A stretch of 64,000 bases of DNA, from assembly GCA_002189035.1 (NCBI GenBank), contig NEEC01000013.1:992001-1056000 (forward strand). The letters are read 5' to 3'. The stretch is from Utricularia gibba. Its lineage: Eukaryota > Streptophyta > Magnoliopsida > Lamiales > Lentibulariaceae. How positions within the stretch are numbered: the first letter of the stretch is position 1; every line of letters starts with the position of its first letter. Shown one piece after another: positions 13,272 through 56,172 of the stretch. Both the position numbers and the translations under genes were made by a program. The notes beneath the pieces were generated by a model. That model saw nothing but the letters and a program-made list of their open reading frames with translations, ran no database searches and had not been told where the DNA came from.

Positions 13272-16200
13272 ATGAGGCAGGAACCCGAATCTTCTGATGT
13301 GTGAGTATTTCACGGCGATTTTGTTCCTCAGTTTAGTGTTTTGATGAACGGATCACATTCCTGGCTTCTGGATCTTAGTGCTCTTAACCTCTAAGTTTTG
13401 TTTTGGTTCTGGGCAGCAAAGGGAAGAAGGACTTCTCAACCGCTATTCTGGAGAGGAAAAAAGCTGCCAATCGGCTGGTTGTCGATGAGGCCGTCAATGA
13501 CGACAATTCCGTTGTTTCAATGCACCCTGCTACAATGGAAAAACTACAGCTTTTCCGAGGAGACACTGTACTAATTAAGGTTTGTTTGTTTGTTTTTTTT
13601 TTTGTATTCTATTCCGCCCCTTTGTGGGGAGATGGACTTGCTCAAAGGATTGATCTGAATCATGAAAGAGGCGAGCAAATTGTGTGTAGATTCCCATATT
13701 TAGAGTAATCATATCAGCTCCTGGATATCTCCTTATGATCGATGGTGGTACTAAGAACCTTAACGTGACCAATGTGCTCGGGTTATGATTGTGGGTTGGG
13801 GGTAGGGGCGTGTGCCAATCATAGTATCCTTTATTAATACTGGTATGTAGCATGTGTAATGTGAAAAAGGATTATTTCTGTTGTTAATTGTTGGCACAGG
13901 TTGAAATTTAAATGCCTGCTTTGGATTTCTATTTTTAGTGAAATTTGCTCGCCACATGGCATGATGTTCTTTTCTTTATTTGTTTATGTGCAAACCACAG
14001 TAATTCAAATTGATGGCTTTAATACATGACTTTTCTGTTCACTGGGGCCGTATGTATGTTTCCAGGGCAAGAAAAGGAAGGATACTGTATGCATTGCCCT
14101 TGCCGAGGATACATGTGATGAGCCAAAGATTAGGATGAACAAAGTTGTCAGGTCAAATCTGCGGGTTCGTTTGGGGGATGTAATATCTGTGCACCAGTGC
14201 CCAGATGTGAAATATGGAAAACGTGTTCACATTCTTCCATTTGATGATACAATCGAAGGTCTCACTGGTGACCTTTTTGAATCATATCTCAAACGTAAGA
14301 ACTGTGATCTTGCTAGTCATTCCTTTCCTTAAAGGAGACAGTTGGTGTATGGATGAGTTTTCTCAACTTCTAACATTGCTCCTGCAGCTTACTTTCTCGA
14401 GGCATATCGCCCTTTGAGGAAAGGAGATCATTTTCTTGTGAGGGGAGGGATGCGAAGCGTGGAATTTAAAGTTGTGGAGACTGACCCTGGAGAGTATTGC
14501 GTGGTTGCTCCTGATACTGAGATCTTCTGCGAGGGTGAGCCTGTGAGAAGGGAGGATGAAGATAGGCTGGATGAAGTTGGATATGATGATGTGGGTGGTG
14601 TCAGAAAACAGATGGCTCAAATCCGTGAGTTGGTGGAGCTACCGCTTAGACATCCACAACTGTTCAAATCAATTGGCGTCAAACCTCCAAAAGGAATTTT
14701 GCTTTACGGTCCCCCGGTTCTGGGAAAACTCTAATTGCTCGTGCAGTGGCCAATGAAACCGGTGCGTTCTTTTTCTTGATTAATGGTCCTGAGATTATGT
14801 CCAAATTGGCTGGTGAGAGCGAGAGCAACCTGAGAAAGGCATTCGAAGAGGCTGAGAAGAATGCTCCATCAATTATTTTCATTGATGAGATCGATTCTAT
14901 AGCTCCTAAGCGAGAAAAGACCCATGGAGAAGTAGAGAGAAGAATAGTTTCCCAACTTTTGACTCTCATGGATGGTTTAAAATCTAGGTCTCATGTTATT
15001 GTCATGGGAGCTACTAATAGGCCGAATAGCATTGACCCGGCTTTGAGAAGATTTGGCAGGTTCGACCGGGAAATAGATATTGGAGTTCCTGATGAAGTTG
15101 GGCGGCTTGAGGTCCTTCGGATTCATACAAAAAATATGAAGCTTTCCGATGATGTAAGGACTTGTTGATTTTAATGAGAGCTTACATTCTTTGAGTCTCT
15201 CACTAGTTGCTAAAAAGGTCTGATTTTACAGGTTGATTTAGAAAGAATTGCAAAAGACACACATGGATATGTCGGGGCCGATCTGGCTGCTCTCTGTACT
15301 GAAGCCGCACTCCAGTGCATTAGAGAGAAAATGGATGTTATTGACCTGGAAGATGATTCAATTGACGCGGAAATACTAAACTCCATGGCTGTGACAAACG
15401 AACACTTTCAGACTGCTCTTGGGACGAGCAATCCTTCTGCTTTGCGAGAGACTGTAAGTGTAACCGTGTCCTAAGTTTTTGAATGAAGCTTTTTCATCAG
15501 GCTGCTTTACTGTGTTCAGCAATTTTCTTTCATTTGGGCTGATATGATTGACACCAGGTCGTGGAGGTGCCAAATGTTTCCTGGGAAGACATTGGAGGGC
15601 TGGAAAATGTTAAGAGGGAGCTTCAGGAGGTTGGATGAATTCATATATGCTTAATTTGATTAAATTTATATCTGCATTTTAATTCATTTGTTGCATCATT
15701 TATGTTGTGTTGTAGACTGTTCAATATCCTGTCGAGCATCCAGAGAAATTTGAGAAATTTGGCATGTCACCTTCAAAGGGTGTACTGTTTTATGGTCCTC
15801 CTGGATGTGGTAAAACCCTTCTTGCCAAAGCAATCGCCAATGAATGCCAGGCTAATTTCATAAGTGTGAAGGGGCCCGAGCTGCTTACCATGTGGTTTGG
15901 GGAAAGTGAAGCGAATGTTCGTGAGATATTTGACAAGGCCAGACAATCAGCACCCTGTGTTCTCTTCTTCGACGAGCTTGACTCCATTGCTACCCAGGTA
16001 CGTTCTTTCGAAAGTGATGTGTCTGATTAATAACCAACTATTTGATTATTGGCAACTGACTTCTCAAGTGCCTGGTGTGTCATTCACAACTTGTGTGTAA
16101 CTAATTGTTGATAAATCTTTCTGCAGAGGGGAAGTAGTGTCGGAGATGCTGGTGGTGCTGCTGACCGAGTTCTCAACCAACTTTTGACAGAGATGGATGG

Positions 16201-53341: not shown

Positions 53342-56172
53342 CTATATCATTATGTGTCTGAGATTTTTCACTCGGTTAACGAAAATGAGCACACACCGGA
53401 CATAATTACAGGCATAGAAATGGTGGATCTGTCTATTCGGGGGCTTGGCGGTGGCGATACTGATGATATAGTCGATCTCCTCCGCCACCTCCTTCATCGA
53501 CGGCCGATTCTGACGCCGCTCCTCCAAGCATCCGACAGCCAAAAACCCCAACGCCTTCATCGTGTCCAACTCTATGGAGCTCGCTCCTTCCTTGAGTCTC
53601 GGGTCGACGGCGTCCATTATCCGCTCCTCCTCCACCAGCCGTTGAACGTATACCGCCAGATTCACGTCATCAGCCTCCCTGGTGAAATCGATCGCCTTCT
53701 GGGATGTCAGGAGCTCCAACAGAACAACTCCGAAGCTGTAGACATCGCTCTTGTCTGTCAGTTGGTAGTTCCTGTAGTACTCGGGGTCGAGGTATCCCAG
53801 GGTGCCCTGAGCGCAGGTCGAAATGTGGCTGAGATCTGTCTCCGCCAACCGAGATAAACCGAAATCGGATACTTTGGCGTTGAGCTTCTCGTCGAGGAGG
53901 ATGTTGCTGGATTTGACATCGCGGTGGTAGATAGGAGGAACGGCTGAAAAATGGAGATAAGCGAGTCCATCGGAAGTTGCTTGAGCGATTCTCAGCCTCC
54001 GATTCCATGGAATGAAGTCTTTTTTCGTCTTTCCTTGGAGATGATCGAGCAATGTTCCGTTGGGGATGTACTCATAGACGAGGACCGGTTGCTGGAGCTC
54101 AACGCAGCAGCCAAGAAGTCGGACAAGGCTGCGGTGGTTCACTTGGCAGAGGATCCGGACCTCGTTCAGCACTTGTTCGATGCTTTTAGCATTTCCGACT
54201 TTAGCGCATTTCACGGCGATCAATGTTCCGTCGGAGAGAACGCCGCTGTAGACCTCGCCATAGCCACCGGCGCCAAGCAGACGGTCCTTGGCGAAGGAAT
54301 TTGTGGCTTTCTTGATCTCCTTTCCGGTGAAAATCTTTGCGGTTCTTCCGCCGCCGGAGTTGAGAATTTCTTCCCTCTCGCGGGCGATTCGCTCTTTCTC
54401 CTCCTTGATGCGGCGGTAGTGCTTGTAGACGATGAACGATATGACAGCGATTATCAGGGCTGAACCCAGTCCTACGGTTAATCCTGCAAGATGGATCCCT
54501 ATTCAGAATAGGCACAGGCAATGGGGTCCGGCGGGTTTCTCCATGTACTTGGAGAAACCCATTTGGAAATTAACTGATGTTTTGCAAATAGTTTGTAAAA
54601 TACCTGATGTTTTACAAATTGTTTGTAAAATACATGTAGATACCAAATTTTAAATGCACAATGATTTTTTTTTATATAATTACACTATATGAAAATATAT
54701 GTAATTTTTATTTTAATATTACATAAAATATTAAAAATGAGTGATTTGAAATATAGAAAAGTATTACAAAATAAATTAATTTGTAAATAATTATTAATCT
54801 AAAAGTATTATTCATTTTCTAATAGATCAATACTCAATTATCATTAATTGATTTAAAATATTTTCAAATTTCATTAAAAATATTAATGTATAAAAATACT
54901 TTGATTTGCAAAATATATATATCTCAAAAATTATAATATTACAAATACACCTTTACAATAAAATAATATCTTCTTTCTTTACAATTTAATAAATTATAAA
55001 CTATTATATTATAATAATCATCAAAATAAACAATTTTTATCTATTATATATAAATATAAAAATTAATATTCATATACAAAATATCATTAAAAATAATAAT
55101 ACTAATTTATAAAAATAATTTATTTATCTTTTGTAAAACATCATGTATTTTACAAATATTTTGCAAAACATCATGTATTTTGCAAACTATTTGCTAAAAG
55201 TACATGTATTCACCTCATTTACTCGCACATAATTATTTATGTACCTGCTATCAGCTCCGTCCGGTGGGAGCGGCAAACATTAGGATCTGCGCACACTGCA
55301 ACCAACAAAGTACGTCGTTTAGAAATTCAATTTCTGCACGCAATTCCTGCTGCTAAAACTTCAAAATAAAAAAAATAAAAACTACTTTCGGTAGCCGGAA
55401 AACTCACCTCGAGTGCAGGTAACGGAAACAGGATCCCACAGGAAACCTGAGTTGCAGTAGCAACGATTGAGGAGGGAATTGGAGTTCGGATCCGGGCGAC
55501 AAACGGAGCGCGACGGACAATCCCTCTGCGCGGCGCAAATAGCCTCGGGAGGGAAAACCCACTGAAGCTCCACGGCTGGCGCCGGCCACTGGTTGACGGG
55601 AAGCGTAGAGTCCAGATTCACGAAGCTACGGTACGCCCGGCACCCTTCGGGCCTGATCCGGATCTGATACGACGTCGTAGAACCGCCGGCGCGGAAGGAG
55701 CAGCAGGGAGTGTTGCGGCAACCACCTGCAGAGTTGGTGGCGTTCACGTAGACGTGGCAGAGGCTGTTGGAGCTGCAATTTAGAGGCGAATTGAGGATCA
55801 AGTCGCTGCAATTGAGGTAAAAAATGGTGTTGCTGCTGGTAATATTGAAAGGGGCGGAGGAGTTGAGTTGGAGGCCGAATGAGGGGAAGTCGGCGGCGAC
55901 ACATGTATTGGGTTCCAATTGCGACGGCGCGATCCTGAGGCGCTCGTTCTCCGGCGAGACTGAGGTGATAGGGTAGGTGTCGTTGATGGAATCGAACATC
56001 AGATTCCCAGCGGAGCAGCGGACTCTGTAGGCCGGGTCCCCGCAACCGGGCCCGTGCTAAGCGGATAAGGTACGGCGGTGGATCCGCAGGGGGGACACGC
56101 CGGCAGGGAGAGTACGCACATAGCGCAATTTAGCAGCACGGCGGCTGCAAGAAGATGAATCGATTTCGCCAT
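53342..56172 (-). CDS. Wall-associated receptor kinase-like protein (WAKL20-type), one apparent frameshift
   Basis: Minus-strand exons 56172-55408, 55295-55245 and 54483-53342 give 652 residues with one base added. A signal peptide (MAKSIHLLAAAVLLN) precedes the Cys-rich GUB_WAK domain, which opens CPPCGSTAVPYPL and continues to CYCNSGFLWDPVSVTCTRG. A 17-codon exon links to the membrane helix VGLGSALIIAVISFIVYKHY. The kinase has GAGGYGEVYSG, VAVK-type Lys (IAVKCAK), HRDVKSSNILLD, VSDFGLSRL and GTLGYLDPEYY, all standard for an active RD kinase. WAK-like kinases sense wall pectin or act in defence and metal responses. Near 56046-56053 one base is missing just before the conserved GCGDP of the WAK domain. 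The large intron contains a MITE-like element. Confidence 0.9.
54540..55215. mobile_element. MITE-like AT-rich insertion in the WAKL intron
   Basis: Both ends carry, in opposite orientation, two tandem copies of a unit of about 30 bases related to TGATGTTTTGCAAATAGTTT and ending GTAAAATAC. Next to them lies an ATGTACTT motif. The interior of about 550 bases is extremely AT-rich and non-coding. It makes up nearly all of the 761-base intron. Exact borders and target duplication are not resolved. Confidence 0.6.

Follow-up and report, generated by a model that had tools for sequence, protein, structure and literature searches.

The window analysed here is a 64,000-nucleotide stretch of the Utricularia gibba genome, located in the interior of a 3.2 Mb contig (C375) of a 100 Mb assembly in 516 contigs; a PacBio/HGAP assembly of this species with a contig N50 of 3.4 Mb is listed in a review (PMC5793159). 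It contains genes or gene copies for a CDC48-type AAA ATPase, an EDR2-like protein, an ARF10/16-type auxin response factor (ARF), a DPB3-1/NF-YC10-like histone-fold protein, a PP2C, an RBMX2-like protein with an RRM and a CCCH finger, and a WAK-like receptor kinase (WAKL), together with a uL15-like remnant (Table 1). Copia-type retroelement-like reading frames were also observed at ~57200-58500, and scans of the window for tRNAs and Rfam families gave no matches. Duplicate blocks related to the window are present on contigs C142, C451 and C2, which provided homeologs for comparison. A preliminary description had ascribed eight single-base deletions in six otherwise intact genes to residual indel errors of the assembly. 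The sites fall in seven genes, and five of them (in the CDC48, DPB3-like, PP2C, RBMX2-like and WAKL genes) proved to be clean one-base losses.

Table 1. Genes and sites of base loss in the window (positions relative to its first nucleotide).
Feature	Position	Strand	Basis or remark
CDC48-type AAA ATPase gene	13272..17032	+	Homeolog alignment; Pfam CDC48_2 and AAA on two frames
C run of 5, one base short, in Walker A motif of CDC48	14711..14715	+	Homeolog alignment
EDR2-like gene	17782..22575	+	Lacks ~265 bp of the C142 copy near 17897-17990
ARF10/16-type auxin response factor copy	24744..26350	+	PB1-like domain absent; near-neutral substitutions
First ARF one-base loss	26122..26126	+	Alignment with C142 homeolog
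Second ARF one-base loss	26327..26335	+	Alignment with C142; ~20-30 bp before homology ends
DPB3-1/NF-YC10-like histone-fold gene	33475..34726	+	Frames, Pfam, copy search
G run of 5, one base short, at DPB3-like frame break	33851..33855	+	Frame offset
uL15-like remnant, true pseudogene (contrast)	46009..46366	+	Stop, replacements, codon-position counts
PP2C gene	48536..49949	+	Homeolog alignment; Pfam PP2C; codon-position counts
C run of 5, one base short, at PP2C frame break	49249..49253	+	Homeolog alignment
RBMX2-like gene (RRM and CCCH finger)	51939..52621	-	Pfam, copy comparison; one base short at ~51955-51965
WAKL gene	53400..56172	-	One base short at ~56044-56052, within GUB_WAK_bind

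In the Walker A loop of CDC48, the homeologs on C142, C451 and C2 all have one base more than the window copy in the alignment (three of three agree). Changes on the window branch numbered 6/2/48 at codon positions 1/2/3 (5/2/39 after the break), and those on the branch of the intact C142 homeolog numbered 4/0/59; the window CDC48 branch is under strong constraint and resembles the intact homeolog. Similarly, the single PP2C homeolog compared has one base more at the break, the frame downstream of the break matches the Pfam PP2C domain, and this part differs from the homeolog by 2/0/12 by codon position. Constraint would have been lost after an old break, and it has been kept in both genes; this test rules out old breaks only, since the pattern of substitutions would look no different after a real mutation of very recent date. 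The damage in both genes consists of one-base losses alone, without the mixed changes of a real pseudogene; among the copies compared by codon position, relaxed constraint was found only in the ARF copy and the uL15 remnant.

The other three clean losses were recognized from reading frames and Pfam domains. In the DPB3-like gene, a frame of 130 amino acids, rich in lysine and acidic residues, is followed by a CBF/NF-Y histone-fold frame at an offset of one base, and a search of the genome for a close second copy found none. The CCCH finger of the RBMX2-like gene scored 28.4 bits in Pfam with the frames joined versus 13.4 bits unjoined (cut-off 20.5). No other good copy of this gene was found in the genome, and the copy on C142 is fragmentary, which makes the window copy the best one available. 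In WAKL, GUB_WAK_bind was detected at 38.3 bits when the two halves were joined and was undetected in either half alone.

The EDR2-like gene, for which a single-base deletion at about 17961 had been proposed, turned out to be a different case: the alignment with C142 revealed that the window lacks ~265 bp, from the last part of exon 1 through intron 1 and ~40 bp into exon 2. No one-base indel was found in those downstream exons that were compared with C142, and these exons are constrained (38/25/90 differences by codon position). An intron of this gene keeps a run of ~20 G at ~19123-19143, indicating that long G runs are not always collapsed.

At both ARF sites the window lacks one base that the C142 homeolog has, as had been claimed, but the copy itself is not otherwise intact: the C-terminal PB1-like domain found in all three homeologs (C142, C451 and C2) is gone. 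Moreover, the window branch has accumulated 24/29/39 changes at codon positions 1/2/3, compared with 9/6/27 on the C142 branch. The two sites were consequently not accepted as clean errors in this truncated and relaxed copy. Real decay of a copy that lacks its C-terminal domain, a reading limited to these two sites, has a little under an even chance of being correct; the domain loss and the codon-position counts speak for it, while ~1.4 kb of the copy is open without a stop, one of the sites lies at a C run, and the homologous frame runs on between both sites. Separately, exon 2 of the ARF copy on C451 (L022, C451:1130001-1140000) was observed to be one base short relative to C2 and C142. The uL15-like copy bore out its proposed role as a contrast, since it has a stop and many replacements, with 25/13/26 differences by codon position.

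A genome-wide search of the GRAS family, whose genes are mostly single-exon, was conducted, and split cases were aligned in a frame-aware manner against intact paralogs. In GRAS domains, 18 one-base losses were detected away from contig ends (three of which rely on paralogs with only 35-38% identity), and a further one lies where C416 begins. This amounts to one loss in every ~2.5 kb of coding sequence (~43 genes with a domain of ~1.1 kb). No insertion was demonstrated in these frame-aware alignments, and very few stop substitutions accompanied the losses. Of the seeming +1 events, those in L056, L063 and L064 were located at introns, the one in L062 became lost bases on comparison with C422, and the one in L065 appears to read as a two-base loss. 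Third-position bias was kept after the break in all eight GRAS genes compared with a reference. Two GRAS homeologs (L051 and L052, ~79% identical) each lack one C in a run that they share and differ by 20/15/58 by codon position after this break. Their frame has been kept since they split, which makes an inherited frameshift unlikely; separate undercalling of the shared C run in each copy is the probable cause.

Frame breaks of this kind were also found in two cytosolic HSP70 genes. Two contigs carry an identical 1651-bp HSP70 stretch (L068, C241:16590-18240; L069, C304:2235820-2237470) with the same break near a G run; the error may have recurred, or the change may be real. The UDPGT, P450 and subtilase families were rejected for such surveys because too many intron or weak-domain splits were present for breaks to be counted from coordinates.

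Homopolymer context was compared between 25 sites of loss and background positions. C/G runs of at least 5 abut nine of the 25 sites (0.84% of background positions), and runs of at least 6 abut five (0.08% of background). No A/T run longer than 3 was found at these sites, so the earlier association with C, G or A runs holds for C and G but not for A. The 42.9 kb of GRAS frames that are intact contain seven C/G runs of 6 and none of 7; in all sequence analysed there were 49 runs of length 6 and five of length 7, a fall that is steeper than at shorter lengths, although the numbers are small.

Loci that were assembled twice were also compared. Under allelic variation, substitutions are expected to outnumber indels. 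Across the stretches shared by C316/C412, C414 and C416/C422, C81/C451, and C376/C413, 18 gap events were found versus two substitutions; in 17 of the 18, the bases are missing in the smaller or terminal contig, and several of the gaps break coding frames. The 4.1 kb shared by C316 and C412 contain one substitution and 10 gap events, which together remove 20 bases, always from C316. The end of C414 shows no substitution and four gaps relative to C422, and the start of C416 no substitution and one gap. A single gap in a G run of C81 splits a subtilase in comparison with C451, while C376 and C413 differ by one substitution and one gap each way, the gap in the opposite direction lying in a T run. 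The corresponding loci, L036 (C316), L062 (C414 end), L066 (C416 start), L072 (C81) and L074 (C376), are near-duplicates of other contigs; as they differ almost only by missing bases, they are redundant low-quality copies in the assembly.

Three features (deletions only, association with homopolymers, and a large excess of indels over substitutions between twice-assembled loci) are in agreement with the view that the frame breaks in the CDC48, PP2C, DPB3-like, RBMX2-like and WAKL genes are, with high probability, errors in the consensus of a plant genome assembled from long reads. One base would be lost at the consensus step, preferentially at C/G runs of at least 6, and a gene that is intact would then appear frame-shifted; the same deletion error would be spread over the whole assembly. 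The platform was presumably PacBio continuous long reads, and the missing bases would be present in the raw reads. Residual indel error, the cause originally suggested, thereby accounts for five of the eight sites and matches the error type of the GRAS survey; it does not apply to the EDR2-like gene, and at the two sites of the ARF copy, which is losing constraint, either error or real decay may be involved. Some observations fit consensus error less well. The identical HSP70 break on C241 and C304 would be unexpected under random error, the RBMX2-like and WAKL sites are away from long runs, and one gap between C376 and C413 is reversed. In addition, the twice-assembled stretches come mostly from the ends of contigs or from small ones, which probably have low coverage; the window, by contrast, lies within a 3.2 Mb contig.

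The breaks might instead be real, recent loss-of-function mutations in copies made redundant by whole-genome duplication, as would befit a genome with many duplicate blocks, four CDC48 copies, a relaxed and truncated ARF copy and a truly pseudogenic uL15 copy. This explanation is nonetheless very unlikely, because the CDC48 and GRAS genes are still constrained, the DPB3-like and RBMX2-like genes have no backup copy, the association with C/G runs is strong, and the losses come without any demonstrated insertion and with very few stop substitutions. Also very unlikely is a scenario in which real one-base deletions, arising as a wave in C/G runs, are silencing many duplicated and even single-copy genes simultaneously. 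Recoding, by programmed frameshifting or editing, would agree with the maintenance of frame on either side of each break, and with nothing more; the genes are unrelated, the sites differ, the intact homeologs show no break, and a locus that is present in duplicate can have it in one copy only, so that this possibility is practically negligible.

Consensus error also has precedents, as mostly false deletions after homopolymers have been reported in published long-read drafts (quantified in PMC12007338; also PMC8812927). Like those homopolymer errors, the one-base false deletions proposed here would fragment genes and produce apparent frameshift-only pseudogenes (PMC12007338, PMC8812927). Unlike the bacterial case, in which mainly A/T runs were affected (PMC12007338), C/G runs are involved here, in a plant, and the present analysis drew on the assembly sequence alone. 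The window also resembles loci undergoing fractionation after whole-genome duplication in its duplicate blocks and in the real changes of the uL15 copy, the 5' end of the EDR2-like gene and the 3' end of the ARF copy; the five clean sites depart from that process, being constrained, free of further damage or in genes that lack a backup copy.

In the main, the frame breaks are an artefact of an ordinary kind, and their chief use is to warn about quality. The EDR2-like and ARF cases imply that decay and error have to be separated for each gene individually. In the GRAS family, with a false deletion in roughly every 2.5 kb of coding sequence, approximately one third of the genes appear broken. 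Counts of gene loss and pseudogenes taken from this assembly would be inflated without prior polishing with accurate reads.
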